Shown here: positions 40,257 through 53,168 of the stretch, piece by piece
How positions within the stretch are numbered: the stretch's first letter is position 1
Layout of the letters: each line of letters begins with the position of its first letter
DNA from: Parapedobacter pyrenivorans
Lineage (GTDB): Bacteria > Bacteroidota > Bacteroidia > Sphingobacteriales > Sphingobacteriaceae
Reading direction: 5' to 3'
NCBI RefSeq assembly: GCF_014636865.1
Contig: NZ_BMER01000001.1
Location: forward strand, 2,902,718-2,966,717
Length of the DNA: 64,000 nt
Program-made: the position numbers and the translations under genes
The notes under the pieces: generated by a model
Databases searched by the model: none
What the model saw: only the letters and a program-made list of their open reading frames with translations
What the model was told of the DNA's origin: nothing

Positions 40257-43236
40257 GTTTGGCTATGCATTGACAGCACTGGCTTTGTACATGGGCAGTG
40301 TGTCTGCCACCGCTCAGGTAAAACAGGATAGCTTGCAGCGGGATACCGTTTTGTTGGAAGAGGTGGAGGTATCAACAGGCTACCAAACCTTGCCGGCCGA
40401 ACGGGCAACCGGCTCCTTCGAGCGGGTAGACGAAAGGCTGTTCAATAGGCAGGTATCCACCCATGTGCTGTCACGTTTGGATGGCGTCATGCCGGGCATA
40501 TTATTCGACAAGCGCGGTCCTTCGGACGTCCTGCGGGTAAGGGGGCTGAGTTCAATAGGGCTTACGGACAGCCGTCCGCTGATCATCCTCGATAACTTTC
40601 CTTATGAAGGCGATCTGGACGCTATTAATCCCAACGACGTGGCGAGCGTAACCCTGCTCAAGGATGCAGCATCTGCATCCATCTGGGGGGCACGGGCAGG
40701 GAATGGCGTACTGGTGATCACCACAAAGAAAGGCCGATTTGCCCAGCCGTTTCAATTGTCGGCTACTTCCAATATCACCATACAGGAAAAGCCCGACCTT
40801 TTCTATCAACCGCAGGTTGCGTCAACCGATTACATCGATATCGAGAAGATGCTGTTCGACCGTGGCGTGTATAATTCCGACTTGTCCAATACACGTACCT
40901 GGCCGGTGGTCTCACCGGTAGTAGATATATTGGATGCGCAGCGACGTGGCTTGCTGACCGAGGAAGAGGCGACAACGAAAATTGACGCGCTTAGAAACGT
41001 AGACCTTCGAAACGATATGAGCCGTTATCTCTACCGTGAAGCCGTCATGCAGCAATATGCGCTGTCCCTGCGTGGGGGGAGCAACCGGCTGAATACGCTA
41101 TTTTCTGCGGGTTTCGACAGGAATCTTCAGTCGGAGCGGGGCAATGGTTATACGCGAACAACCGTTAGAAACCAAACCTCACTGAGGCCACTGGATAAAC
41201 TAACGATGGATATCGGCATCGCCTATTCGGCAAGTAATCGACAGTCAAACGACCCCGGTTCAATAAGTATAAGTACGGGCAACGGTATTTACCCCTATGC
41301 GGCGTTGGTAGATGAAAATGGTCAGCCCGCGGTGATTGCAAGAGATCGGCGTGCAGGCTATGCAGATACCGCGGGGATGGGAAGGCTGCTCGATTGGCGG
41401 TACCGGCCCTACGAGGAACTTGCACTCGCAGACAACACGACACGATTGCAGAACCTGCTGTTCAACTTTTCTGCACGATATCAATGGAGTTCTCATTTGA
41501 GTACGGAAATACGCGGGCAGTATGAAAACCAATGGACCGATGGGCAGCAGTTGCAGCACGAACATTCGTACTATGTGCGTAATTTGGTTAATACGTTTAC
41601 GCAACTGGCGGGCGAGAATGTGATCAGACCCGTTCCGCTGGGCAGCATATTAGACGGTAGCCGGTCGCGTTTGCAAGGCTATGGCATCCGTGGGCAGGCC
41701 AACTACAACCGGGATTGGTCTATTCATCGCGTGGCAGCTATTGCCGGTGGCGAGATCAGGCATGCCGGAACCGAATCGAACAGCGATAGGTTCTACGGGT
41801 ATGATGCAGACCTGCGGATCAGCCAAGGAGTAGACTATGTAAACCGCTATCCGCGCTATACCAATTCGAGTTTAAGTAACATACCTTACATGGTATCCAG
41901 CCAGCGGGCGGTAACCCGGTTTGTTTCGCTGTATGCCAATGCTTCCTATACCTTGGCCGATCGGTACACCGTTTCGGCAAGTGCACGGCGGGATGCATCC
42001 AACCTCTTCGGGGTGGCTACCAATAACAAATGGTCGCCATTCTGGTCGGCCGGTCTGGCATGGAATATTGCAGATGAGCCTTTTTATCATTGGTCGGCTG
42101 TACCGCACCTCAAATTGCGTACTACGTATGGCCATGCGGGCAATACCGACAATGACCGGCCTGCCGTTACCACCATCGATTACCGCGGTGTTACAACGTT
42201 GGGCAGATTTCCCTATGCCATTGTCAGTAATCCACCTAATCCGGAGTTGCGTTGGGAAGACGTGGCTACTTGGAACATCGGGCTGGATTTTGCAACCCGG
42301 GGACGTACCCTGGGCGGTAGTCTGGAATATTATATCAAAACCGCATCAGACCTGATTGCACTGGTCGAAGCAGATCGTACATCGGGCTTTAATTCCTTTT
42401 CGCGCAATAGTGCGGTACTGCAAAACCATGGGTTCGACATTTCATTGTATGGCCGCCATGGAAAAGGCAACCTCGGGTGGTTGTGGGATGCTTCGTTTTC
42501 CCACACGCGCAATAAGGTGCTGGAATATTATTATTCCCCAACAAGCTATAGCAATGCGGTGACCAGGGGTGGAAATACGTTAACTCCCTTTGTCGGTCGG
42601 CCGGCCTACGCCCTGCTAAGTTATCGGTTCGCGGGCCTCGATCCCGAAACGGGCGACCCCTTGGGGTACTTAAACGGGGAAGTCTCCAAAGACTACACGA
42701 GTATGATACAGCGCGCTACCGAAAACGATGTCATACTGCACGGCACCGCCATGCCGCCCTATTTCGGTGCGTTGCGCAATACGTTCCAATGGAAGAACCT
42801 ATCTATTTCAGCAAACGTAACGTTCCGTTTCGGCTATTTTTTCCGCAGGAACACGGTGATGTATTACCCCATCCTTTCCGGCAGCGCCATCAACATACAT
42901 GGCGATTATTACAAACGGTGGCAACAGCCTGGCGACGAGGTACATACCACGGTACCGTCCATGCTGATACCGGGCAGCGCCGTGCGCGACGGATTTTACC
43001 GTGATTCCGAAGCAACTGCCGAGCGTGGAGACCACATTCGTCTGCAGGATGTAAACCTAAGTTATGCATTCCGTGGCGATGCATTGCGGTGGGGGCCGTT
43101 TAGGGAAATCAGGGCAACCCTCTATGCGCGCAATCTGGGCCTAATCTGGAAAGCCAATGATGCGGGGCTGGATCCGGACTACTTGGAAATGCCCGCGCCC
43201 CGAAGTGTTGCGTTTGGGTTATCGATGGACTTTTAA
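40249..43236 (+). CDS. SusC/RagA-family TonB-linked outer-membrane protein
   Basis: 995 residues from ATG 40249 (GTG 40243 is possible). A signal peptide ends near residue 22. The plug starts directly with VEVSTGYQTLPAERATGSFE; the carboxypeptidase-regulatory-like N-terminal domain of most SusC proteins is absent. The plug signature VTLLKDAASASIWGARAGNGVL is near 140-162 and the barrel ends in LSMDF with terminal phenylalanine. It overlaps the TlpA gene by 8 bases and is followed after 10 bases by susD-like. This TlpA-SusC-SusD type is often not linked to carbohydrate enzymes and may take up peptides or other nutrients. Confidence 0.95.
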   Translation: MNKFGYALTALALYMGSVSATAQVKQDSLQRDTVLLEEVEVSTGYQTLPAERATGSFERVDERLFNRQVSTHVLSRLDGVMPGILFDKRGPSDVLRVRGLSSIGLTDSRPLIILDNFPYEGDLDAINPNDVASVTLLKDAASASIWGARAGNGVLVITTKKGRFAQPFQLSATSNITIQEKPDLFYQPQVASTDYIDIEKMLFDRGVYNSDLSNTRTWPVVSPVVDILDAQRRGLLTEEEATTKIDALRNVDLRNDMSRYLYREAVMQQYALSLRGGSNRLNTLFSAGFDRNLQSERGNGYTRTTVRNQTSLRPLDKLTMDIGIAYSASNRQSNDPGSISISTGNGIYPYAALVDENGQPAVIARDRRAGYADTAGMGRLLDWRYRPYEELALADNTTRLQNLLFNFSARYQWSSHLSTEIRGQYENQWTDGQQLQHEHSYYVRNLVNTFTQLAGENVIRPVPLGSILDGSRSRLQGYGIRGQANYNRDWSIHRVAAIAGGEIRHAGTESNSDRFYGYDADLRISQGVDYVNRYPRYTNSSLSNIPYMVSSQRAVTRFVSLYANASYTLADRYTVSASARRDASNLFGVATNNKWSPFWSAGLAWNIADEPFYHWSAVPHLKLRTTYGHAGNTDNDRPAVTTIDYRGVTTLGRFPYAIVSNPPNPELRWEDVATWNIGLDFATRGRTLGGSLEYYIKTASDLIALVEADRTSGFNSFSRNSAVLQNHGFDISLYGRHGKGNLGWLWDASFSHTRNKVLEYYYSPTSYSNAVTRGGNTLTPFVGRPAYALLSYRFAGLDPETGDPLGYLNGEVSKDYTSMIQRATENDVILHGTAMPPYFGALRNTFQWKNLSISANVTFRFGYFFRRNTVMYYPILSGSAINIHGDYYKRWQQPGDEVHTTVPSMLIPGSAVRDGFYRDSEATAERGDHIRLQDVNLSYAFRGDALRWGPFREIRATLYARNLGLIWKANDAGLDPDYLEMPAPRSVAFGLSMDF

Positions 43237-43246
43237 TTTAATAACA

Positions 43247-44602
43247 ATGATATCATTAAAGAAAACGCTGGGACTGGGTTTGATCTTCTGCTGTACGGTC
43301 GCCTGTGAAAAATACCTTGCGGAAAAGCCCAGTTCTTCAATCGCCATACCTTCAACCGTGGGGGATTTTCAGGCATTGGTTGACTATCAAGCAAGGATGA
43401 ACGAAAATTATCCCGATTGCGGCGATAATGCGGCTGACTATTTCTACCTGCTCACAGCAGATTGGATGGCTCGTGCGGAATGGGGGCGTGGAACTTACGT
43501 TTGGGACCCCCAAGCGGATGCCTCGCGGGATTGGTCGGTCTGCTATGAGAAGATCTTCTACACCAACATTGTCCTAGAGGGGATAGATGATGCGTTGCTG
43601 GACGGTCTGGGAGAAAGAGATCGTGATCGGGTGAAAGGCAGTGCACTGTTTATCCGTGGATTTACCTACCTCAACTTGGTGCAGTTATTTGTGCCTCCTT
43701 ATGATTTGGATATCGAAGATAGCCCTTATGGCTTGCCGCTTCGATTGACCCCGGATATCAACGCGGCGACAACTAGAGCCACGGTGGGCGATACGTATCG
43801 GCAAATAGAGGCAGACCTGCTGGAAGCCGTTTCGTTCCTGCCGGATAAATCGTTTATCGCGACACGCCCATCGAAGGCTGCCGCATACGCAGCGCTTTCG
43901 CGGTTGTACGTGTTTATGGAACGGTACGACGATGCATTAACCTATGCAGACCGTTGTTTGGCCGTTCAGCCAGACCTGATGGATTACAACGATCTTGACG
44001 CTTCACAGCGGGAGCCGTTTACCGAATTGAACCCAGAGGTCATTTTTCATGCGGCGTTGCAGGGTCAGTCCGGTATTCTCGCGCAGTCACGCGCCCGTGT
44101 AGACTCAACGCTGTACTCGACGTATGGCCCGAATGATCTTCGCAAGGCACTGTTTTTTGAGGAGCAGAGCGATGGTACATGCCTATTTAAAGGCTCCTAT
44201 TTTGGGAGAGGCGCAATTTTTTCAGGACTGGCAACCGGCGAGGTCTATCTGATGAGGGCTGAATCGTTGATTCGTTTGGGCGATTGGCAGGAAGGAGTTG
44301 AAACCCTGAAACAATTGTTGAATAAGCGGATGGAAGCCGGAATGGTCGACATCCCCGCCGATCTGGATGAAGAACGTGCGCTGGCATGGGTCTTGGCAGA
44401 GCGGGAAAGAGAGTTGGCGTTTCGTGGAGGGGTAAGATGGGGCGATCTCCGGCGGTTGAACAAAGACGAGCGATTTGCGAAGACGTTGGTTCGAGTTGTT
44501 GACGGCCAGACCTATGTGTTGGAACCGAACGATCCGCGTTATACCTTTCTGATACCGATTCAAGTCATTTTACATTCGGGAATTCTGCAGAACCAGCGTT
44601 AA
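43247..44602 (+). CDS. SusD/RagB-family lipoprotein
   Basis: 451 residues, at the short end for SusD. Lipobox TVACEK (cysteine ~20) gives surface anchoring. SusD landmarks are YEKIFYTNIVLEGID near 98-112, VKGSALFIRGFTYLNLVQLF near 128-147, GEVYLMRAESLIRLGDW near 328-344 and RERELAFRGGVRWGDLRRLN near 384-403. It pairs with the preceding SusC. A strong hairpin terminator follows. The start at ATG 43247 was chosen because the lipoprotein signal begins there; the longer frame runs inside susC. Confidence 0.93.
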   Translation: MISLKKTLGLGLIFCCTVACEKYLAEKPSSSIAIPSTVGDFQALVDYQARMNENYPDCGDNAADYFYLLTADWMARAEWGRGTYVWDPQADASRDWSVCYEKIFYTNIVLEGIDDALLDGLGERDRDRVKGSALFIRGFTYLNLVQLFVPPYDLDIEDSPYGLPLRLTPDINAATTRATVGDTYRQIEADLLEAVSFLPDKSFIATRPSKAAAYAALSRLYVFMERYDDALTYADRCLAVQPDLMDYNDLDASQREPFTELNPEVIFHAALQGQSGILAQSRARVDSTLYSTYGPNDLRKALFFEEQSDGTCLFKGSYFGRGAIFSGLATGEVYLMRAESLIRLGDWQEGVETLKQLLNKRMEAGMVDIPADLDEERALAWVLAERERELAFRGGVRWGDLRRLNKDERFAKTLVRVVDGQTYVLEPNDPRYTFLIPIQVILHSGILQNQR

Positions 44603-44610
44603 CATGAAAT

Positions 44611-44642
44611 ACGGGTACAGCGCTAACTGTACCCGTTCATTT
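44611..44642 (+). terminator. intrinsic-terminator-like hairpin after susD-like gene
   Basis: ACGGGTACAG and CTGTACCCGT form a perfect 10-base stem with a 6-base loop (44611-44636), followed by a T-rich stretch. It ends the TlpA-SusC-SusD operon and sits before the convergent DUF6520 gene. Confidence 0.8.
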
Positions 44643-44666
44643 GTTACTCACAAAACCGACCCCTGC

Positions 44667-44996
44667 TTAATTTCCGGAAAACGCCCCGTACGTGAGGTCC
44701 TGATGCTGGTCCCCGTCTTCGATCGCCTCAATAAGTTCCGGCGAAAGATCGGGTTGCCCTCCTGCGTCAGGAGCGTCTACAAGACATACCTGTTCTTGAC
44801 CTGAACAATCGTTTTCACTGGCTCCGGGAGCCTCGTCATATCCCCGCGGATCTGTAGGGGGAAACCCTTTCTCAGGGTTATATGACCACATGGTGGCGCT
44901 TGATGTACTAAGAGCCTGCACCGCGGCTTTGCCGACGAACACTGTGAACGCCAGCAACAACGCTACCAAGGGTAGCTGCTTACTTAATTTAACCAT
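44667..44996 (-). CDS. DUF6520-family small exported protein
   Basis: 109 residues from ATG 44996 (MVKLSKQLPLVALLLAF). The N-terminus is a membrane or signal segment (~5-25), followed by a low-complexity acidic, proline-rich tail with one likely disulfide pair (DCSGQEQVCL). This layout is that of DUF6520, a Bacteroidota family of unknown function found beside MauE/DoxX and AraC genes as here. I would expect it in the periplasm. It is the last gene of the leftward AraC-MauE-DUF6520 set. Confidence 0.7.
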   Translation of the reverse strand: MVKLSKQLPLVALLLAFTVFVGKAAVQALSTSSATMWSYNPEKGFPPTDPRGYDEAPGASENDCSGQEQVCLVDAPDAGGQPDLSPELIEAIEDGDQHQDLTYGAFSGN

Positions 44997-45195
44997 AATT
45001 ACTCCTGTTTTAAAGAACATCACTTGGCGGGTTGCTTGCTCCCTTCAAACGGTTTGTTATTCCTGCCCTCCGGCAGCCGGTGAAGGCATCGTTTTATCGC
45101 CTTCCTCTTTTGGTTGTAAACCGCTCGTGGGAACGTCGCTTCCCGCTTTTGTGATTGCCGAGTTAGCTACACCCAGCGTCCGTATACGGATATCG

Positions 45196-45654
45196 TTATC
45201 GGCCGTCAGCCCACCGCTGCGGCTTCTTTTCGTTACGTGTTTTTATGCTTCGGTGGTATAGTACCCCACCCATTGCTGCCAATGCGGCGAGCCCCATGTT
45301 TACCCAGAAATGTGCCGTCCACGAAAGGCTGCTGAAGAGCTTGCCGCAGGCGCACACCACATTTCCATCAGGCTCAGATGCCGCGTAGGCGGTATAGCCG
45401 GCGAACGCCAAAAGCATCACGACCGAAGCCCAAAGGCCCCAGCGTCTTGTTCGCGGGTAAACCAATAGTCCGGTTACGGCCAGTTCGCCGATAGGCAGCC
45501 CCCACTCCAAAACCGCCTTTGCCCAGCCGGGCAGCGGTTGCTTGTATAGCTGGATACGGAATACCGTATGGTACCAAACTTTCTCGATGCCGGTATAAAA
45601 GAAAAGCATGGTGAGCAGAACGGTAATGATGAGCATGTAAGGTGTTGCTTTCAT
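45196..45654 (-). CDS. MauE/DoxX-family redox-associated membrane protein
   Basis: 152 residues from ATG 45654. Four membrane segments, with TGIEKVWYHTVFRIQLYKQP near 20-40, a CACGKLF cysteine pair near 105-111, and LSWTAHFWVNMGLAAL near 114-129. The MauE-like group of the DoxX fold handles thiol/disulfide chemistry in the inner membrane. The neighbourhood with TlpA thioredoxin fits this. On the same strand another frame stays open past its stop for ~45 codons (to ~45065), so a frameshifted C-terminal tail or a small extra gene cannot be ruled out. Confidence 0.8.
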   Translation of the reverse strand: MKATPYMLIITVLLTMLFFYTGIEKVWYHTVFRIQLYKQPLPGWAKAVLEWGLPIGELAVTGLLVYPRTRRWGLWASVVMLLAFAGYTAYAASEPDGNVVCACGKLFSSLSWTAHFWVNMGLAALAAMGGVLYHRSIKTRNEKKPQRWADGR

Positions 45655-45740
45655 AACGCTAAGGAAAGGTGAAAAGCCGCCGATGTGGCTAACCGAAACG
45701 ATAGCCGTGCAGCTATTTTTCCGGCGGATGGTCAAACCGG

Positions 45741-46718
45741 TCAATGCTGCTGGCGAAAGGCTGTGGGCGTTAGTCCGGTCTCGCGCTTAAAGGCGCGGAT
45801 GAGACTCTCGGCATACATAAAGCCTACCCGTTCGGCAATGGCGGTAAGCGAAAGTTCGGTATCCAGCAGCAGGTGCTTCGCCGCGTGGATACGCTGCATG
45901 CGTACAGCACAGGCAACGGAGATGCCATACTTAGCGGCATAGGCATGCCGAAGCGCGGGAGCCGACCATCCGAATTGCCGTGAAATCCCCTTTAGCCGCA
46001 TGGAGTACTTTTCGGCGTAGTGTGCTTCGATATGGGCCTGCACACCGTCGAGCATCGTGTCGATCGGGTGTATGGCGGGTTGCTGCTGCAATCGTTCGTG
46101 GTAAAGGGCTAGCAACCGGGCGAGGTATATCTTCAACGCGCCGTCCAATTCGTCGCCCCGCTTCGGGCAGTTCCGTATACGTTGGAGGGTGCGCTGCTCG
46201 TCTTGCATTAGCGTAGCCTCGCGAAGGCACAACGGCGGGTCGGCGTTGGTTTTCCATGCGTTTACGAGAGGATGCAGCTCGTTATACTGCCGCGTAAGCC
46301 ATACGAGGTATCCGTATGGAAACGCAACCAACAAGGTCTCATGTTGGCCGGGTGGCAGGTTAAAAAGGTAGTTGCCGGCAGGTAGGTAGCACCCGCAGTA
46401 CCTGCCCTTTTCCAGCCGGAAGGGTGCCCCGCCGTGCAGCAGTCTGTTTATGCGACCTTTGAGCTGGTATACAAACAAAACCAGGCCTTCGCCGAGCTGC
46501 AACTGCATGGCTTGGCCGCGGACAATATGTGCCGTATACAGGTAGATGCTGAATTGCCACCCTTCGACCAGTTGCAGAAATAAATGCGCTTCTGCATGTT
46601 CCAGCAGGCTGCGTTTAGCATAAGGTATCGGATAATCGCTGATCCTTACCGGATCGTTTAGTGCTTTGGCCGGCCGATCCGATGCCTGGGCAAAGCAAAT
46701 AGTTAGTGTTCTTTCCAT
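45741..46718 (-). CDS. AraC-family transcriptional regulator
   Basis: 325 residues. The C-terminal ~100 residues hold the double helix-turn-helix of AraC proteins: MRLKGISRQFGWSAPALRHAYAAKYG and IHAAKHLLLDTELSLTAIAERVGF, then RAFKRETGLTPTAFRQQ. The N-terminal part is a ligand or sensor domain without a strong family match. It precedes the MauE-like and DUF6520 genes on the same strand and may regulate them and the facing TlpA-SusC-SusD operon. Confidence 0.9.
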   Translation of the reverse strand: MERTLTICFAQASDRPAKALNDPVRISDYPIPYAKRSLLEHAEAHLFLQLVEGWQFSIYLYTAHIVRGQAMQLQLGEGLVLFVYQLKGRINRLLHGGAPFRLEKGRYCGCYLPAGNYLFNLPPGQHETLLVAFPYGYLVWLTRQYNELHPLVNAWKTNADPPLCLREATLMQDEQRTLQRIRNCPKRGDELDGALKIYLARLLALYHERLQQQPAIHPIDTMLDGVQAHIEAHYAEKYSMRLKGISRQFGWSAPALRHAYAAKYGISVACAVRMQRIHAAKHLLLDTELSLTAIAERVGFMYAESLIRAFKRETGLTPTAFRQQH

Positions 46719-46995
46719 GTGCTAAAAATGGATAGGTAGAAACTAAGGAATGGCAATTGGTGACAGAATCGTATCATGGGTTGATAGGCTTGGCTCGTCA
46801 AAGGACGAAAGCATTCGTCCGCCGGTAGACCTATTTCGTCCCGTTAAAGTCGGATTCCGTTTTGAATCACGCATAAAGTTAGTCAGGATTCCCATGTTTG
46901 CCGCTGTCGACAAGTTTATTCCGATGGCCAAAGGAAGCAGGGGATTCCGAAAACCTGAGTAAGAGAGTAGGATAAAACCTTAACACGGAGAAACC
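46719..46995. other. intergenic region upstream of micro-peptide gene
   Basis: Two overlapping open frames cover it (46750-46962 on + and 46743-46931 on -), both ~60-70 codons and without family resemblance. I see no clear promoter box. It probably carries the divergent control regions of the AraC gene and the micro-peptide gene. Confidence 0.3.
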
Positions 46996-47061
46996 ATGGA
47001 AGAAGAATCTTTTTTCCCGATTTTCGAAGAAGAACCAAAATGTGATCCCTGGATCTTTTAA
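46996..47061 (+). CDS. 21-residue acidic micro-peptide, candidate precursor or signal peptide
   Basis: The frame ATG 46996 to TAA 47061 encodes 21 residues: seven acidic residues (MEEESFFPIF, then EEEPK), one cysteine and an aromatic C-terminus (CDPWIF). GGAG at 46987-46990 sits five bases before the ATG, a better ribosome-binding site than most genes here have. A GC-rich hairpin follows directly, and then an acyltransferase-like gene and a two-component system, all on the same strand. It has no signal peptide or known leader motif. I propose a small substrate or signal, with moderate doubt because short frames occur by chance. Confidence 0.45.
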   Translation: MEEESFFPIFEEEPKCDPWIF

Positions 47062-47074
47062 TCGAGCATGAAGG

Positions 47075-47098
47075 TGCCCCGCAATAAGCGGCGGGGCA
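47075..47098 (+). terminator. hairpin between micro-peptide and acyltransferase-like gene
   Basis: TGCCCCGC and GCGGGGCA form a perfect 8-base stem with an 8-base loop, followed by TCATCCTGTTTTC. Placed between two same-strand genes it would act as a partial terminator or RNA stabiliser, giving more peptide than enzyme. Confidence 0.65.
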
Positions 47099-47137
47099 TC
47101 ATCCTGTTTTCAACCGTGTTTTCCAATAAACCCAGAA

Positions 47138-47992
47138 ATGAATTTCTATCAACAACTGACAGCCATGGCCAACGAAATCGAAGGTATCGATGTAATAACG
47201 TCCGAGGCATGGTACCGGCGCTTTGCAATTTTCAGCGCCAACCTGGGCTTAATGATACCAAATGTACCCATGGCAGATCATGTGGATTTATTCAAAAAGA
47301 CGATCCGTAACCAGTGCTGGGCAAAGGAAGAACAGCGCCATTTTCAGCAAATGGAGTATGCCCTGGATGATCCGGTAAGGGAAGTTATCGCAGGATTGCC
47401 TAAACAACCAGCCATTATTGCTACCTTCCATATGGGGTCATATCGATTGTTGGGGCAAGTGTTGGCCAAAATGGGCGTAAAGTTTTCCCTGCTTTTGGCC
47501 ACCAATATCGCCATTGATCAGGGTGAAACGTTCCGCAGATCGATCCACGACATCGGCGGTCCACTGCCAACGACATTTGACATCATCGATGCGGAGTCGC
47601 CTGCCGCTGGGTTGAAAATGCTGCGATCCCTAGGCAGGGGTGAAAGTTTATTGGCATATGTAGACGGCAATACCGGCGCGGGTAGCCAGCAGTCCAAGAC
47701 CATACCGGTGCCCTTTATGAACGGTACGTTACACGTCAGACAAGGGTTGCCTTGGCTGGCGTATAGGGCGGGTGTGCCATTGCATGTCATCCACTGCCTG
47801 CGGGGGGGACCGGGTCGTGCCAGGTTCAAGCTTGGTGTCAATCCGTTGCCAGGTAACAATGGATACACACCCATCGCTTCGGATATCCAACGGGCGATGC
47901 AGGTATTGTATGCCGATTTGGCTGCACACATAACAGATGATCCTTGGCAGTGGGAATGCTGGCTCTATCTGCAGCATTATTTACTAAAGTGA
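47138..47992 (+). CDS. divergent LpxL/HtrB-like (lysophospholipid) acyltransferase-family protein
   Basis: 284 residues. The fold pattern is that of lipid A late acyltransferases: PAIIATFHMGSYRLLGQVLAKMG near 91-113, DIGGPLPTTFDIIDA near 139-153, LGRGESLLAYVDGNTGAG near 167-184 and VPFMNGTLHVRQGLPWLAYRAGVPLHVIHC near 192-221. The canonical HxxxxD/E catalytic pair is altered: H98 is followed five residues later by R103. There is no N-terminal membrane segment. The gene lies between a micro-peptide gene and a sensor kinase, so acylation of a peptide or other small product is possible. Confidence 0.65.
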   Translation: MNFYQQLTAMANEIEGIDVITSEAWYRRFAIFSANLGLMIPNVPMADHVDLFKKTIRNQCWAKEEQRHFQQMEYALDDPVREVIAGLPKQPAIIATFHMGSYRLLGQVLAKMGVKFSLLLATNIAIDQGETFRRSIHDIGGPLPTTFDIIDAESPAAGLKMLRSLGRGESLLAYVDGNTGAGSQQSKTIPVPFMNGTLHVRQGLPWLAYRAGVPLHVIHCLRGGPGRARFKLGVNPLPGNNGYTPIASDIQRAMQVLYADLAAHITDDPWQWECWLYLQHYLLK

Positions 47993-48019
47993 GTAATTTT
48001 TTCGTAGGTTTTATGGGTG

Positions 48020-48052
48020 TTTAAACGATAATTTTTAATATTATCGTTTAAA
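48020..48052. promoter_or_regulatory. 13-base inverted repeat before kinase gene
   Basis: TTTAAACGATAAT and ATTATCGTTTAAA form a perfect 13-base inverted repeat with a 7-base spacer, ten bases before the kinase start. It lacks a T-run, so an operator is more likely than a terminator. Autoregulation by the downstream LytTR regulator is possible. Confidence 0.55.
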
Positions 48053-48062
48053 ATATAAGCCT

Positions 48063-49172
48063 ATGCAGCCAATTATACCTAGAAGCCCATGGTTTCATCG
48101 CGTGATTTTGCACAGTCGCTGGTGGCTACTCTATACGGCAGTGGTCTCCTCGCTCAACTTATTTGGCAGGCCAGTTCATTATGTTTTTGGTTACCTCATG
48201 GTCTGCTTGCTGATGGCTTTGACCTTTTATGCGCTACTGGTAATCCATTGGCATATCCGCAACAATTGGTTGAAAGCGGTAGGCTATCTGGTGGTAGCGG
48301 TGGCCATGCAATTGTTGTTGTTCGAGCTATTGAATGTTTGGCTGCCGAGTATCCACATTGAATTACAACGTCCTGTAAAAGCCATGACACTGCGTTCACT
48401 ATTCTTTGGTTTGAATATGTTTCTGGATGTTGCGCTAGGAGCCGTAGCTTATGCACTCCATCGAAAGGCAGTTAACGCACTGGAACAACAGCTCCAATTG
48501 GAACGGGCGTTGCATGCAAAGGAAGTCGAACGCTTAAACATGGAGGCGTTAGCGTTGCAACGTGAGTTGGAAAGGAGACGGGCAGAAAGTGCACAGTGGG
48601 TAACCGCGATGAATTCGCACGGTATTCGAAATGCTTACAATGCTATTTACCAATTGCTCTTAAAGAACGAAAAGATTGCAAACGGCTTTCTGGGCTTAAA
48701 AGCGATGCATGAATATGTGTTGGAAAATGCACCGGGCCAATCGGGAATGGTACCACTGAGACATGAAATAGAGATGCTACGAATATGGTCGAAGGTTTAT
48801 GAACTGGGATACCAATCAAATAGCTCATTGGATATCGAGGTGGCGACTCGGCTGCCGCCGATCTCGGTGCCTTCATTCAGTTACATCGTCTTTCTGGAGA
48901 ATGCATACGAACTGGGAGATAACGGAAACGCCGAACATCCCGTTCAGATCAGAATCAATATCGTCAAACAGCATGTCCATTTCAGGATCCGGAATAAGAA
49001 AATAACGAATAAAATGAAGAGCCGGTTTAAATCCGGTCGCCCATCAGGTTTGGGTATTAAAGGGGTACGACAGCGATTGGAATTGACCGATATTCCTTAT
49101 AACCTGGTAATTGAGGACCGCGACGACTTTTATACGGCTACTTTATCCATTGATTATACTAAACACATTTAA
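48063..49172 (+). CDS. LytS/YehU-type sensor histidine kinase (divergent)
   Basis: 369 residues. Four membrane segments at ~18-135, a short coiled coil at ~140-175 and a His_kinase/HATPase part follow. The phospho-acceptor histidine is in NSHGIRNAYN (H186); the family normally has NPHFLFNxLN, so the motif is divergent. The N-box ENAYELGDNG and the G-box GLGIKGVRQRLEL are near 282-291 and 333-345. Divergence in both boxes raises the question of reduced or atypical activity. It is followed after one base by its LytTR response regulator and preceded by the acyltransferase-like gene. Confidence 0.85.
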   Translation: MQPIIPRSPWFHRVILHSRWWLLYTAVVSSLNLFGRPVHYVFGYLMVCLLMALTFYALLVIHWHIRNNWLKAVGYLVVAVAMQLLLFELLNVWLPSIHIELQRPVKAMTLRSLFFGLNMFLDVALGAVAYALHRKAVNALEQQLQLERALHAKEVERLNMEALALQRELERRRAESAQWVTAMNSHGIRNAYNAIYQLLLKNEKIANGFLGLKAMHEYVLENAPGQSGMVPLRHEIEMLRIWSKVYELGYQSNSSLDIEVATRLPPISVPSFSYIVFLENAYELGDNGNAEHPVQIRINIVKQHVHFRIRNKKITNKMKSRFKSGRPSGLGIKGVRQRLELTDIPYNLVIEDRDDFYTATLSIDYTKHI

Positions 49173-49173
49173 T

Positions 49174-49965
49174 ATGGCTATCCTTCCTTATCCCCATCGT
49201 TTGCGGATTGTTGTTGTCGACGACCACCAATCCAGTATTGATGTAATTAATGCGCACGCCACCAAAATGGAAAACGTGTCGGTATCTTTGGCAACTACCG
49301 ATCCGTTTGAAGCGCTCCGTTTTATCCGACAGAACACCGTAGAAGCCGTTTTCCTCGACGTCCGGATGGATGTGATGGACGGATTGGAGTTCATTGAGCA
49401 ATTAGCTGATCCACCACCGATTGTACTGACCACAGCCTATGATGAATTTGCCCTGAAGGGCTATGAACTGGAGGTGGTGGACTACCTGTTGAAACCGATT
49501 GATTTTGCCCAGTTTGCCAAAGCTATTCATCGCGTCGAAAAAAAGCTGTTTGGCGTAGCAGCACCAACAGTGCCGATTGAAGAACGAGCAGATTCCCGTG
49601 TTATTTTGCCGGTTGAGCATAAGATGATCATGGTGAATCTAACGGATATCCTTGCCTTGGCGGCCCGCCGGAACACAACCGAAGTACATGTCCTTGGTCA
49701 GTACCATTTCTTGGACAGGCATACGAGTAAAGTATCTCGAGAAGTGATGGACATGGTCGTCAATAGGCCGTTTGGCGAATTGGTAGATAGCTTGCCTTAT
49801 CCACAGTTTGTACGGACACATCGTAGTTACGCAGTGGCGTTGGATATGATCGCCGAATTCAATGGAGGGTTTGTGAAGTTGTTCCATTTGCCGCAAAAAT
49901 CGTTCTCGGTTTCGGAAACCTACCGCGAAGAAATCAAGAACTTATTGAGTAAAGAAAATCAATAG
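49174..49965 (+). CDS. LytTR-family response regulator
   Basis: 263 residues from ATG 49174; the longer frame overlaps the kinase gene. The receiver domain (~10-130) has DD near 16-17, phospho-acceptor D62 in FLDVRMD, and VVDYLLKPIDF near 103-113. The LytTR DNA-binding domain (~150-260) has TTEVHVLGQYHFLDRHT and FVRTHRSYAVALDMI. It starts one base after the kinase gene, so the two form a cognate pair. LytTR proteins typically bind short repeats upstream of their targets; the inverted repeat before the kinase gene is a candidate. Confidence 0.92.
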   Translation: MAILPYPHRLRIVVVDDHQSSIDVINAHATKMENVSVSLATTDPFEALRFIRQNTVEAVFLDVRMDVMDGLEFIEQLADPPPIVLTTAYDEFALKGYELEVVDYLLKPIDFAQFAKAIHRVEKKLFGVAAPTVPIEERADSRVILPVEHKMIMVNLTDILALAARRNTTEVHVLGQYHFLDRHTSKVSREVMDMVVNRPFGELVDSLPYPQFVRTHRSYAVALDMIAEFNGGFVKLFHLPQKSFSVSETYREEIKNLLSKENQ

Positions 49966-50012
49966 TCCACATATGTTTAACATACTTTATTTAACGCTAA
50001 AAGGAGGCTCTT

Positions 50013-50315
50013 ATGGAAAACAACCCTTATTTATCTTACCCCAAAAAGGAAAGCGCGTTGGCGGAAGCTGTCGTAGCGCTACTTAACCAAATTGCAGAAC
50101 TGCTCAAGCAGTTGCTGGCCGGTCTGGGCAATCCCGCTCGTCGCCATGGGCTGCTACGACCTGAAGAGGTAATGACCATGCTCTGCATTACCGACCGTAC
50201 CCTGCGAAGGTATAATCAGCAAGGTATCCTCCGGCCCATCCGCTTTGGCGGCATGTACTTTTACCTGATGGATGAAATCATCGCATCGGGTAGAGGAGAT
50301 GCTACCGCCGGATAG
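50013..50315 (+). CDS. helix-turn-helix (excisionase/MerR-like) protein
   Basis: 100 residues. An AAGGAGG element (50001-50007) six bases before the ATG gives a strong ribosome-binding site. The C-terminal half is a MerR/HTH_17-type domain: LLRPEEVMTMLCITDRTLRRYNQQGILRPIRFGGMYFYL. The N-terminal half is an amphipathic helix (AVVALLNQIAELLKQLLAGL). Such proteins act as excisionases or as small regulators in mobile elements. It stands directly before the DUF6266 set, on the same strand. Confidence 0.8.
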   Translation: MENNPYLSYPKKESALAEAVVALLNQIAELLKQLLAGLGNPARRHGLLRPEEVMTMLCITDRTLRRYNQQGILRPIRFGGMYFYLMDEIIASGRGDATAG

Positions 50316-50326
50316 CTGCCTTCGTT

Positions 50327-50360
50327 GCTTCCCGCCGTCCGCATCGAGGCGGCGGGAAGC
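50327..50360 (+). terminator. GC-rich hairpin after HTH gene
   Basis: GCTTCCCGCCG and CGGCGGGAAGC form a perfect 11-base stem with a 12-base loop, 11 bases after the HTH gene. There is no clear T-run, so termination efficiency is uncertain. Confidence 0.6.
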
Positions 50361-50727
50361 ACAGGTATCAATATCCGTTCCCACTTCGGTATTCGTTGCG
50401 ACTTCCCTTTGATCTTGGTTTGGTCTCGGTTATACCTCGCTTTGCGCAGACCAATACGAGTGCAATACGAGGTAGCTCGGAGTGCAGAAGGAGCTCCCAA
50501 GCAACTCGTTATCTTTTCGCTTTCCAGTCTGGTACCCTGCACGGTTAGTCATCGTGTTGCCCGGCTAAACCCGGCTAAATCCGGCCAATGGTGGCCAATT
50601 CCGGTCAACTGCGGACAGCTGTTATTTTATTCTTTTTCAGGTGTTTATGTTTGCGTCGTCAGCGTTGGGCTACCAAAGGGTAGGACGCTGGCGATATGAA
50701 TTTTTACACTTAAAAAAGGAGGACATT
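50361..50727. other. long leader region upstream of DUF6266 genes with ten-base repeats
   Basis: No protein gene is supported here. The notable content is the block of six ten-base units at 50561-50620, listed separately. A ribosome-binding site (AAAGGAGG, 50714-50721) precedes the first DUF6266 gene. The rest shows no feature I recognise. Confidence 0.5.
50561..50620 (+). repeat. six imperfect ten-base tandem repeats
   Basis: The units are CCGGCTAAAC, CCGGCTAAAT, CCGGCCAATG, GTGGCCAATT, CCGGTCAACT and GCGGACAGCT. Period is exactly ten bases, close to one DNA helical turn, with the core CCGGcCAA drifting from unit to unit. It lies ~110 bases before the first DUF6266 gene. It could be a cooperative protein-binding array or simple slippage. 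Confidence 0.7.
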
Positions 50728-51366
50728 ATGGCAAAATTCATAAACGGTGCAATAGGCACTTTTTCGGGAAAAGTGGGAAGCATAATCGGCAGCAGCTGGC
50801 GCAACATCCACTACATGCGTGGTCTGCCGAAGAAACGCACGAAGCCGTTTTCGGAGGCGCAATTGGCACAGCAACAGCGTTTCGGGCTGATGGGTAAGTT
50901 CCTACTCCCACTCAAGGGGTTGTTTGAGATCGGCTTGGCCAACTTGGACGACGGCGAGGCTACGCTCTTCAACCAGGCGATGGGAATGAACCTGCCGGCC
51001 GTGACGGGCAGCTACCCGGAGTTTACCATCGACTACGGCAAGGTGCAATTCAGCAAGGGTGGATTGTTGAAGCCGCGGGGCGTAACGCTCACCGCCGGTG
51101 CGCAGGAGGTGACGGTAGCGTGGCGACCGGGGGTAACACCATTCAACGGCCACGCGGACGATGACGTGTACTTGCTGTTGTATGACCGCGAGCTGGAGGT
51201 GTTTTACACCACGGATGAGGTGGTGCAGCGCTCGGTTGGCGAGGCGGTCGTTCCCATAGATGACGACACGGTGGGGCATGATGCGGAGGTATGGCTGTTT
51301 TGCGTGAGCCGCGACGGTGCTTCGATATCGGAAACGGTGTATGGAGGTTCGGTATTGTGGGCGTAG
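50728..51366 (+). CDS. DUF6266 family protein (copy 1)
   Basis: 212 residues from ATG 50728 with AAAGGAGG upstream. N-terminal GAIGTFSGKVGSIIGSSWR and LPKKRTKPFSEAQLAQQQRFG are the DUF6266 hallmark. The family is Bacteroidota-specific and of unknown function; it is often found with DUF5675 genes, as here. The N-terminal part is basic and low in acidic residues, the C-terminal part a beta-rich domain (DDDVYLLLYDREL, AEVWLFCVSRDG). No signal peptide or membrane segment. A second, diverged copy follows after a hairpin. Confidence 0.75.
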   Translation: MAKFINGAIGTFSGKVGSIIGSSWRNIHYMRGLPKKRTKPFSEAQLAQQQRFGLMGKFLLPLKGLFEIGLANLDDGEATLFNQAMGMNLPAVTGSYPEFTIDYGKVQFSKGGLLKPRGVTLTAGAQEVTVAWRPGVTPFNGHADDDVYLLLYDRELEVFYTTDEVVQRSVGEAVVPIDDDTVGHDAEVWLFCVSRDGASISETVYGGSVLWA

Positions 51367-51394
51367 CTCGTGCTGCGACTAAAGTTTGACATGG

Positions 51395-51415
51395 ACCGGG
51401 GCCTTGTGCCCCGGT
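51395..51415 (+). terminator. hairpin between the two DUF6266 genes
   Basis: ACCGGGGC and GCCCCGGT form a perfect 8-base stem with a 5-base loop, then TCATTAAAAAGGAG, the ribosome-binding site of copy 2. Probably an attenuator or RNA-processing hairpin rather than an operon end. Confidence 0.6.
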
Positions 51416-51434
51416 TCATTAAAAAGGAGAGATC

Positions 51435-52070
51435 ATGGCAAAATTAACTGACTTGTTGGCGTTTTCGGGCGCTGTTGGCGATATGGTGGGTTGTAAGGGG
51501 CCGCACGGGTTTTACATCCGGAGCCGCCCACGGAAATCGCACAAAGAACCCACTGCAAGGCAATTGGAAGTGCGTGCGCGATTGGCATTGGTGATGGGCT
51601 TTTTAAAGCCACTCAAAGCGGTTATTCATCTGGGCTTTTCGGCCACCAATACCACAAGGACCAAGATGTCGGCAATGAATGCTGCGGCCTCGCATGTGCT
51701 CAACCATGCAATTGCTGGTGAATATCCCGACCTGCAGATCGAGCCTGAAGAGGTGCGGTTGAGCCGAGGCATGTTACAGGGTTTGGCAGACGTGGGAATC
51801 GGGATGTTGGGTACTTCGGTGGATGTGACCTGGTCGACCGAGCCGCCTCAATTCATCGGCTATCCGGACGACCGCGTAACGATCGTGGTTTATCATCCGG
51901 CGGAAAAGACCGTAATGGTTGGAAAGGTATCACGGGACGCGGGAGCGGTGTCGGTGGATGTCTCGGATGAACCGACCGGCAGTGAGCTGCTGGTGTACGC
52001 CTGCGTGTCGGATCGCGACAGGAAAGAGTTTTCGAATAGCCAGTTTTTGGGGAGAATTACCTATGAATGA
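51435..52070 (+). CDS. DUF6266 family protein (copy 2)
   Basis: 211 residues. Same layout as copy 1 but strongly diverged: LTDLLAFSGAVGDMVGCKGPHGFYIRSRPRK at the start, then ARQLEVRARLALVMGFLKPLKAVIHLGF, and the later DDRVTIVVYHPAEKTVMVG and LLVYACVSDRDRKE strands matching those of copy 1. Preceded by AAAAGGAGAG. It overlaps the DUF5675 gene by 8 bases. The two copies differ enough to suggest complementary rather than identical roles, for example two subunits. Confidence 0.7.
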   Translation: MAKLTDLLAFSGAVGDMVGCKGPHGFYIRSRPRKSHKEPTARQLEVRARLALVMGFLKPLKAVIHLGFSATNTTRTKMSAMNAAASHVLNHAIAGEYPDLQIEPEEVRLSRGMLQGLADVGIGMLGTSVDVTWSTEPPQFIGYPDDRVTIVVYHPAEKTVMVGKVSRDAGAVSVDVSDEPTGSELLVYACVSDRDRKEFSNSQFLGRITYE

Positions 52071-52521
52071 ACGACAAAGAATAAAAATAATCCGCGTGGC
52101 GCAGGGGAAGAACAGTACCCTGAGCCACCTCTATATCGGCAGCTTTTTCTGTTGCTACCTGCTGGAAGACAGCATCCGAACGGAGAAAATCCAGGGCCTT
52201 ACCTGCATCCCGGAGGGGGAGTATGGGCTTTCGCTCAATCCCTGGGCGGGCATGAACGCACGCTATGCGCCCAAATACCCCAAGCTGCACCAAGGCATGG
52301 TGGAGATCATCGAGATACCAAACTACAGCTTGGTGTTCATCCACATCGGCAATTACCATACGCAGACGGCAGGCTGCCCGCTCACGGGATCGTACTGGCA
52401 ACTGCTGGATGGCGACTACCAGGTGCTGCACTCCGCCGCAGCGTATAAGTACGTGTACCCGTTGCTGGTGGAGCAGATTGGGCTGGGTAATGATCGGGTA
52501 ATGGTAGAGAATCGGTTTTAG
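52063..52521 (+). CDS. DUF5675 family protein
   Basis: 152 residues from ATG 52063, overlapping the preceding gene by 8 bases. DUF5675 landmarks are LSHLYIGSFFCCYLLEDSIR near 20-40, IQGLTCIPEGEYGLSLN near 43-59, EIIEIPNYSLVFIHIGNYHTQTAGCPLTG near 84-112. The histidine, Gly-Asn and Cys pattern resembles L,D-transpeptidase or lysin-like folds, and DUF5675 is often annotated in phage and mobile-element contexts. A cell-wall or lysis-related role is possible but unproven. Its last bases form the left arm of a 17-base inverted repeat. Confidence 0.75.
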   Translation: MNERQRIKIIRVAQGKNSTLSHLYIGSFFCCYLLEDSIRTEKIQGLTCIPEGEYGLSLNPWAGMNARYAPKYPKLHQGMVEIIEIPNYSLVFIHIGNYHTQTAGCPLTGSYWQLLDGDYQVLHSAAAYKYVYPLLVEQIGLGNDRVMVENRF

Positions 52522-52706
52522 CCTGCTGCTCACCAACTGGATCTCCGGCGCTATGCTTGGATCTCCTAGGTTGGCTCTGCAGCAGGCTAAAACCGAATGG
52601 GGCAGGGGTATGGGGGCTTTCGCAACCCATCCAGCTGCTTAGCAAGCCCGTAAGGAACCTAGTGGCGTGAGCAGAGCGAGCGTTACAGTTCCGTTGGGCT
52701 TGCTAA
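52513..52706 (+). ncRNA. two large hairpins in the DUF5675 downstream region
   Basis: CGGTTTTAGCCTGCTGC (52513) pairs perfectly with GCAGCAGGCTAAAACCG (52579), a 17-base stem over a 49-base loop with TGGATCTCC occurring twice. TTAGCAAGCCC (52639) pairs with GGGCTTGCTAA (52696), an 11-base stem. CGTTACAGTT occurs twice (52681 and 52724). Candidates are a structured 3' region, a small RNA or remnants of mobile-element ends. No known RNA family is recognised. Confidence 0.45.
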
Positions 52707-52780
52707 CAGCACCCCACGTTACAGTTGCGGCGCGCGTCCAAAGTGCCTCCACATTTAATAGATCACAAAAAAGCTAAAAA

Positions 52781-53005
52781 ATGAACGTAAACAAAGAAAC
52801 CGTTGGGCTTCCCGAAGCGGAGAAGCCGACACTATACGACAGGATCAAAGAAACGCTGGCGATGGCCAGTCAATTGATTATTGCTGCGCCACTGAAGCTG
52901 CCGCCCAAGGTAGTCGTGGTAGCCAAATATGTAGCGCTGGCACTTGGTGTATTGGAAGCCGTGGAAAGTGCTGCAAAAAAAGGGGACGACGATGATGAAG
53001 ACTAA
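52781..53005 (+). CDS. small hypothetical protein of the DUF6266 cassette
   Basis: 74 residues. A helical N-terminus (PTLYDRIKETLAMASQLII), a hydrophobic middle (VVVVAKYVALALGVLEAV) and an acidic tail (KKGDDDDED). One membrane-associated or amphipathic helix is likely. It overlaps the following small membrane protein gene by 14 bases. I recognise no family. Its place before a holin-like protein suggests a joint role. Confidence 0.6.
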   Translation: MNVNKETVGLPEAEKPTLYDRIKETLAMASQLIIAAPLKLPPKVVVVAKYVALALGVLEAVESAAKKGDDDDED

Positions 53006-53168
53006 CCACCAGCTCGGCATCGGCACCACCGGCGGAACGCTGCTGGGCATCATCGGCCAACTGGGCATGCACGATATGTTGCGCACAGCACTGCTCGCCG
53101 CCATCGGTGCCGTGGTGAGCTTTGCCGTGACGTGGCTGCTGCAACGCCTGTGGCGGAGACGCCACTAA
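52992..53168 (+). CDS. small membrane protein, holin-like
   Basis: 58 residues from ATG 52992. Two hydrophobic stretches (GGTLLGIIGQLGM and ALLAAIGAVVSFAVTWLLQRL) and a basic tail RLWRRRH make a small holin-like or hydrophobic peptide. It overlaps the preceding gene by 14 bases and a strong terminator follows. Size and topology fit phage holins, but so do many small membrane proteins; the call rests on context. Confidence 0.6.
   Translation: MMKTNHQLGIGTTGGTLLGIIGQLGMHDMLRTALLAAIGAVVSFAVTWLLQRLWRRRH

Follow-up and report, generated by a model that had tools for sequence, protein, structure and literature searches.

The 64,000-nucleotide window analysed here (Parapedobacter pyrenivorans, contig NZ_BMER01000001.1, positions 2,902,718 to 2,966,717 of the forward strand) carries, between positions 46,996 and 49,965, a micropeptide gene, a hairpin, an enzyme gene, and the genes of a LytS-type sensor histidine kinase and a LytTR response regulator. 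Together, these genes probably constitute a peptide-signalling cassette akin to those that produce ribosomally synthesized and post-translationally modified peptides (RiPPs), built on an enzyme of the lysophospholipid acyltransferase (LPLAT) fold and laid out like Agr and ComQXPA. The same judgement extends to its distribution: a four-gene modified-peptide signalling cassette probably occurs in Sphingobacteriales and Chitinophagales, with the window locus as one copy. A sequence-only reading of this DNA had placed a micro open reading frame (micro-ORF), a hairpin, an LpxL-like enzyme, and a LytS/LytTR pair here, and all are present. It also suggested that the peptide, the enzyme, and the kinase/regulator belong to one cassette; support for this is strong, and chance does not explain how these elements are grouped.

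Recurrence of the gene set and its micropeptides

The cassette is found repeatedly within its own genome and beyond. The enzyme has four paralogues in the same genome (27-35% identity), and the order micropeptide-hairpin-enzyme-kinase-LytTR is kept in all four paralogous cassettes, whose upstream ORFs end in the Cys-bearing sequences PCDEFIL, KCGFTPL, KCEIDWL, and SCETPIIRIFT. The window enzyme as query matched 9 of 41 genomes (own included), and an enzyme profile found matches in 87 of the 399 genomes of the family; these genomes belong to 6 of 25 genera and hold up to six matches each. Scanning named genomes yielded 23 loci, in Parapedobacter, Olivibacter, Ferruginibacter, Terrimonas, Agriterribacter, and additional assemblies of Chitinophagaceae or Bacteroidota; a large sister genus also carries cassettes. 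In a sample spread across the phylum, 10 of 395 genomes matched at E 1e-10 (own included), although five of the ten, at 42-47 bits, are weak matches that could be ordinary acyltransferases. The region 46930-49970 has no near match among 72,556 plasmid records.

Comparisons were made across 79 distinct loci, which are the 88 enzyme ORFs with enough flanking sequence less nine near copies (>90% alike). The 88 comprise 5 own-genome cassettes, the 23 named loci, and 60 regions hand-picked roughly from the top of the profile-score order. Whether the peptide frame is kept in relatives had been set beforehand as a test; it is, directly upstream of the enzyme at 76 of the 79 loci (73 curated peptides plus those of L089, L092, and L093). 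A kinase gene is present at 76 loci, being absent from L119, L136, and L068, the last of which has sequence for only 19 bases past the enzyme. The regulator is present at 73 and missing from L068, L069, L104, L108, L119, and L136. Three loci, L119, L136, and L104, look decayed by eye, with kinase and/or regulator gone and transposase-like ORFs close by. Across the 70 loci at which all three genes were called, evolutionary distances correlate between enzyme and kinase (0.82), enzyme and regulator (0.82), and kinase and regulator (0.91). None of 999 Mantel permutations gave values as high; these permutations, like the label shuffles described below, ignore shared ancestry, which the correlations partly reflect.

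The micro-ORF of the window starts at ATG 46996, has 21 codons followed by a stop at 47059-47061, and encodes MEEESFFPIFEEEPKCDPWIF. An ORF of this length is nothing special in itself, and it is taken as more than chance because it is conserved in relatives. Its closest relatives are MEASLNEAYELLFPILDEDDKCEHIYL of P. koreensis (L081) and ...LLLFPIIDDDDKCDNFII of P. soli (L087), and the enzymes of these three species group together with support 100/97. Peptides of the sub-branch (FFPIFEEEPKCDPWIF, LLFPILDEDDKCEHIYL, and LLFPIIDDDDKCDNFII) have in common F-P-I-[FLI], then an acidic run, then K-C-[DE].

Among all micropeptides, the most constant feature is a C-terminal cysteine, found in 75 of 76. 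The Asn variant at L143 adjoins a very divergent enzyme (end branch 2.43) and is a possible hint as to whether the cysteine is the modified residue. The peptides were curated by eye with start codons set by rule; for example, those of L130 and L142 have 18 residues under the ATG rule and 41 with a GTG start. In 44 of the 73 curated peptides the cysteine lies 5 or 6 residues from the end, with L, F, or I as the final residue of 39 of those 44. K or R stands before the cysteine in 44 of the 72 curated Cys-bearing peptides, and the commonest core is K/R-C-x5-stop. Cores are otherwise clade-specific (KCDxxIL-like, RCPIxTI, KCNIVFP, CDVILPGLDMF, KCIPYEGL, and, in Chitinophagaceae, DSCCIDTQPPLPPG). 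The distance from the cysteine to the end, labelled automatically, tracks the enzyme tree with 4 changes, against a mean of 23.2 in 200 label shuffles, the lowest of which gave 15. Finer core classes need 9 changes against 30.2 when shuffled, a partly circular result as one class was defined in part by a list of loci. Most precursors have 40-60 residues with leader-like stretches, and many of the longer ones share motifs such as NPIPLDQL or KPLSIEEL. At 76 of 79 loci, a short precursor with a variable part and a conserved core adjoins a putative modifying enzyme, as in RiPP clusters. Known families do not account for these peptides: 23 representatives compared with NCBIfam and Pfam gave scattered single-member matches (best E 0.05), and neither database names the micropeptides or the enzyme as a separate family.

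The association of the Cys core with the enzyme was measured against 312 control starts, which are mechanically called ORFs of at least 150 residues from the same loci rather than verified genes. A strict pattern, [KRPSD]C-x(5,6)-stop, composed after the peptides had been viewed, occurs upstream of 43/79 enzymes and 8/312 other starts (Fisher 2.4e-27), with a mean of 3.8/79 in ten shuffles. Looser patterns separate enzymes from control starts less well: C-x(5-7)-stop precedes 49/79 enzymes and 52/312 other starts (shuffle mean 15.9), and C-x(4-13)-stop precedes 67/79 and 126/312 (shuffle mean 44.1).

The proportion of synonymous differences (pS) exceeds that of non-synonymous differences (pN) in 17 of 17 peptide pairs without a common member, drawn from 34 comparable pairs. 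A minimum identity of 55% was required of all pairs, a restriction that biases pN downwards; some of the 17 lie within one clade, and one of the 34 listed pairs, window-L124, resembles a chance alignment. Differences fall at codon positions 1, 2, and 3 in numbers of 93, 70, and 220 in 14 of the 17 pairs, the third position thus taking 220 of 383. Judged by these substitution patterns, the micropeptides evolve as coding sequence, with selection acting on the amino acids.

The LPLAT-fold enzyme and the sensor pair

By sequence, the window enzyme resembles lipid-A acyltransferases only weakly. It has no Pfam match at E 0.01, the Lip_A_acyltrans match being sub-threshold (E 0.068), and it scores far below the cut-off of the NCBIfam LpxL model (E 4.8e-6). 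Its predicted model has a predicted local distance difference test (pLDDT) score of 89.9. A Foldseek search of the PDB matched LpxM (E 2.5e-10, template-modelling score 0.67) and PatA (E 4.9e-9), and all 14 PDB matches at E ≤0.001 are LpxM or PatA. As modelled, the enzyme has an LPLAT (LpxM/PatA) fold.

Conserved residues are consistent with a site that has been changed rather than lost. His98, Asp176, and Trp272 are invariant in 79/79 enzymes, Gly177 is found in 78, and Trp275 in 77. The sequence-only reading had noted a changed HxxxxD/E motif in the window enzyme, and H98 and R103 are indeed seen there. Across all 79 enzymes, the place of the HX4D/E acid is most often taken by R (49, the window's included) or Q (14); A is found in 6, each of P, M, G, and F in 2, and the acid E only in L124 and L127. 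These residues are most naturally read as a site that is altered yet still active, and, given the predicted fold, the enzyme may well transfer an acyl group. The cassette enzymes resemble LpxL, LpxM, and PatA in fold and in the invariant His; they differ in the invariant D176, the near-invariant G177, the WxxW motif, and the exchanged acid, in adjoining a micropeptide (76/79) and a kinase (76/79), and in long forms with an extra C-terminal domain.

Fifty-three of the 79 enzymes exceed 320 residues. When the C-terminal part of 14 long forms was made into a profile, it was also found in 26 of the 65 other enzymes and was not detected in the window enzyme. The predicted model of one long form (L072, pLDDT 91) compares with the LpxM/PatA fold at a Z of about 21. 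Over 69 of its residues 305-374, the C-terminal domain aligns at Z 6.3 with TbiB1, whose structure was solved with a leader peptide; it also aligns with MccB residues 1-81 at Z 5.6. Both of these are RiPP recognition elements (RREs). The resemblance of this modelled domain to an RRE is suggestive only. A joint loss of leader and C-terminal domain was considered as a general rule and rejected, as L007 lacks the domain yet keeps a leader-like stretch. Such co-loss fits only the clade of the window, in which the window and L081 have the shortest precursors and no C-terminal domain.

The window kinase is a divergent LytS-like protein with three hydrophobic segments by hydropathy. Its Pfam matches to His_kinase (PF06580, E 6.2e-4) and HATPase_c_5 (PF14501, E 0.0089, 16.4 bits against a cut-off of 22) are both sub-threshold. 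A simple hydropathy scan finds two to four such segments in the first 200 residues of cassette kinases. The regulator is well defined, with Response_reg (8.5e-18) and LytTR (5e-10; PF04397, 39.9 bits against 22.6) both over the cut-off. The phospho-acceptor His is kept in 69/70 cassette kinases and the Asn taken as ATP-binding in 68/70, and the phospho-Asp and Lys of the regulators in 70/70. Because these phosphotransfer residues are intact, the kinases and regulators should work. A search of the own genome with the window kinase missed two of the four paralogous cassette kinases. At the minus-strand end of L017, an ORF adjoining a non-cassette LytS/LytTR pair resembles, by eye, the C-terminal part of a lantibiotic dehydratase.

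RNA features and neighbouring genes

The features of the window locus are collected in Table 1. Micropeptide genes usually have a strong hairpin behind them. The window region 46960-47140 folds with a z of -3.45; for the 70-nt interval that begins at the micropeptide stop codon, z is -3.67. Such intervals have z < -2 at 58/73 loci (mean -3.3), compared with 15/78 (mean -0.7) for 70-nt intervals that begin at the enzyme stop codon (Fisher 5e-14). Only this cross-locus comparison is informative, as counts of promoter and terminator patterns across the region are at chance level. The GGAG site that had been credited to the micro-ORF is present 6-9 bases before its ATG, but it looks incidental, since many relatives have A-rich starts without such a site (by eye).

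Table 1. Features of the cassette in the window, with the basis of each assignment
Feature	Positions	Strand	Basis and remarks
DUF805b RNA element (Rfam RF02914, Cis-reg)	46937..46973	+	Rfam; presumed 5' leader of the micro-ORF
Micropeptide gene, 21 aa, presumed precursor, C-terminal core K-C-D-P-W-I-F	46996..47061	+	ORF and relatives
GC-rich hairpin with T-rich tail	47073..47100	+	Folding; presumed partial terminator or 3'-end stabiliser
LPLAT-fold (LpxM/PatA-like) enzyme, 284 aa, short form	47138..47992	+	Predicted model and Foldseek
Membrane LytS/AgrC-like sensor histidine kinase	48063..49172	+	Weak PF06580 and PF14501; hydropathy
LytTR response regulator	49174..49965 (from ATG 49174)	+	Response_reg and LytTR

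Upstream of the micro-ORF, a DUF805b match (37.4 bits against a gathering threshold of 35.6) ends 22 bases before it and is the sole match in the 5.9-Mb genome. The cassettes of the window, L081, and L087 all have this element (by Rfam, on L020 and L018 for the two relatives), with its GAAAA 44-47 bases before the start codon. Most cassettes are without the element: Rfam matches it at 3 of 35 loci scanned, and its core pattern precedes 7 of 73 micropeptides, namely those of the window, L081, and L087 and the KCIPYEGL-type peptides of L095, L104, L105, and L107. In sister genomes, the GAAAA occurs 43-52 bases before genes that, by eye, encode GG-leader bacteriocin-like peptides (L163, L167, and L169) and a DUF6520-like secreted protein (L168), and 41-42 bases before two other genes (L162 and L166). 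This spacing indicates that the micro-ORF sits where the genes of a DUF805b element begin. DUF805b may generally serve as a leader for genes of small secreted proteins; a literature search on the DUF805 motif gave no paper.

The flanks hold several recurrent genes. Downstream (50013-53168) lie an HTH_17-like gene (50013-50315, below the cut-off), two DUF6266 genes within 50731-52070, a DUF5675 gene (52066-52521), and two genes for small proteins without a Pfam match. Relatives of the HTH and DUF6266 proteins, and also CHAP-like proteins, recur downstream of subsets of the other cassettes; the own genome has 19 DUF6266 matches, most of them away from cassettes. Upstream (40243-46718) are a SusC/SusD pair, a small DUF6520-like protein (by eye, without a Pfam match), a MauE protein, and an AraC regulator. 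Across the 79 loci, MauE relatives are found at 17 and AraC-like regulators upstream on the other strand at 30, including the window, and a Crp-like regulator, named by eye, occupies the same place at 22. These AraC-like, Crp-like, HTH, DUF6266, and CHAP-like neighbours are candidate targets of the cassette regulator. Six loci of one clade have symporter-like and oligopeptidase-like neighbours. At L075 and L119, the frames just 5' of the enzyme resemble, by eye, the end of an M50-type membrane peptidase.

Competing readings and known systems

Read as a signalling cassette, the locus would work as follows. The micropeptide would be a precursor whose C-terminal Cys core (KCDPWIF in the window) becomes the signal. 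The hairpin 3' of it would let more peptide than enzyme be made, and limiting read-through so that the precursor exceeds the enzyme appears to be its simplest use. The LPLAT-fold enzyme would modify the precursor, most likely by acyl transfer, with the conserved cysteine as the likeliest target. In long forms, the winged-helix-like C-terminal domain would probably hold the precursor leader. The product, once out of the cytoplasm, would reach the membrane kinase as its receptor and lead to phosphorylation of the LytTR regulator, which would then turn on target genes and probably, by autoinduction, the cassette itself.

Several observations weigh against this account. The acid of HX4D/E is missing in 77/79 enzymes, so ordinary acyl transfer is not assured, and L143 carries Asn in the place of the cysteine (KKNDLVWL). 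No micropeptide was found upstream of the enzymes of L075, L097, and L119 (3/79 loci). The RRE-like domain is absent from the window enzyme itself, and where it occurs, Z values under 8 may reflect a mere common arrangement, as NO66 oxygenase domains reach Z 6.2. Pfam detects no PqqD in the 14 long-form tails, and PDB sequence profiles give a best E of 0.07. A second test set beforehand, whether kinase and regulator are conserved without the enzyme, favours the cassette only partly: enzyme loci nearly always keep both genes, at the frequencies given above, but the own genome has five further LytS-type kinases that match the window kinase, four beside LytTR, with no enzyme within 1.5 kb on each side. 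Two non-cassette kinases even outscore both of the other cassette kinases found by the window-kinase search. Such enzyme-less LytS/LytTR pairs indicate that the kinase family is not cassette-specific; the gene order is. Finally, no exporter or leader peptidase was recognized by eye among neighbour clusters common to at least four loci, a gap in the path to the kinase that would allow for a membrane-anchored signal inside the cell.

Three other accounts share parts of this evidence. The product could be an antimicrobial or another extracellular natural product; as in lantibiotic clusters, the kinase and regulator would sense it to bring about autoinduction or immunity, and signalling would be secondary. 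The gene logic of precursor, modifying enzyme, and dedicated two-component system would be alike, DUF805b also precedes the bacteriocin-like peptides of sister genomes mentioned above, and divergent cassettes occur several to a genome. This explanation is nevertheless unlikely, given that no exporter, immunity gene, or leader protease was recognized by eye among the shared neighbours and that a core of about six residues in a bare four-gene set is more pheromone-like. The lack of a recognized exporter or leader peptidase there fits a sensor of lipid status. In this account, the acyl-donor pool would govern acylation of the micropeptide (or of a lipid) by the enzyme, and the kinase would read an intracellular membrane-anchored product, with no signal between cells. 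Members of the LPLAT superfamily use acyl donors, and the LpxM/PatA-like fold of the model and the two to four hydrophobic segments of the kinases agree with this idea. A general lipid sensor, however, has no need of several cassettes in one genome that diverge strongly and have clade-specific cores; these resemble specificity groups, and this makes the idea improbable.

The remaining account denies the peptide any function: as a cis-acting leader, translation of the micro-ORF would control a terminator or attenuator hairpin before the enzyme gene. A strong T-tailed hairpin does lie directly 3' of the micro-ORF, with strong folding at 58/73 loci, and an RNA element lies upstream. Selection, however, acts on the amino acids, and the conserved part is a clade-variable C-terminal core instead of a run of a single codon. 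Most precursors are, moreover, 40-60 residues long with leader-like stretches, and the core type tracks the enzyme; a cis-acting leader is accordingly very unlikely.

The signalling cassette, as the preferred reading, invites a bolder and more tentative one. The loci might represent a novel pheromone class of ribosomal peptides in Gram-negative Bacteroidota, defined by Cys-core precursors, acid-exchanged LPLAT-fold enzymes, an RRE-like domain in the long form, and dedicated LytS/LytTR pairs. The up to six enzyme copies per genome would then be parallel insulated channels, and the 21-residue precursor of the window would mark a sub-branch without leader and leader-binding domain.

Agr (AgrBDCA) of Firmicutes is similar in combining a small precursor, a dedicated modifying protein, a membrane kinase, and a LytTR regulator in one operon. 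The cassette core, with one Cys close to the C-terminus, resembles the autoinducing peptide of S. aureus. The cassette differs from Agr in having an LPLAT-fold enzyme in place of AgrB and in its Gram-negative Bacteroidota host. Its precursor, in addition, mostly stops at the core and has no charged recognition tail at the C-terminus; the window peptide ends 5 residues past the Cys. Pfam scans of the 14 larger window proteins in 40243-53168 found no AgrB, nor did a look by eye, at the other loci, at clusters common to at least four. Complete AgrC-AgrA is reported for alphaproteobacteria, clostridia, and bacilli (PMC8895600). ComQXPA of Bacillus likewise joins a precursor, a lipid-modifying enzyme, a kinase, and a regulator, with a residue near the C-terminus being modified. 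ComQ is an isoprenyl transferase of another fold, and ComA is a NarL-type regulator. In the cassette peptides, Cys rather than Trp is conserved, and the PDB matches of the window enzyme, all LpxM or PatA, include no ComQ.

Lipidated RiPPs, whether N-acylated or the DAG-RiPPs of Bacteroidota MNIO clusters, share with the cassette a ribosomal precursor, occurrence in Bacteroidota, and a lipid attached to the peptide, which is only proposed here (PMC12636315, accessible sections). Those sections name N-acylated lipidated RiPPs and the Cys-lipidated DybA, which uses the lipoprotein pathway after MNIO; an enzyme of the LPLAT fold that comes with a sensor pair is not described in them (PMC12636315). 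The cassette is likewise not described in the accessible sections of PMC8895600, PMC12636315, and PMC9248904, and no description of it was found in a literature search whose coverage omits most subscription journals. In layout and logic the cassette is close to Agr and ComQXPA, but AgrB and ComQ are lacking, with an LPLAT-fold enzyme standing in for them. The cassette has a fair chance of being a RiPP class new to science.

Gram-positive bacteria are well known to signal between cells by means of peptides. To our knowledge, no peptide pheromone has been described for Sphingobacteriales and Chitinophagales, and literature searches showed none. A compact, recurring cassette with a recognizable precursor core makes the question of such a pheromone directly testable in these orders. 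The enzyme family would add an acyltransferase fold to the enzymes that modify RiPPs and, if acylation proves true, would offer short natural substrates usable for peptide lipidation.

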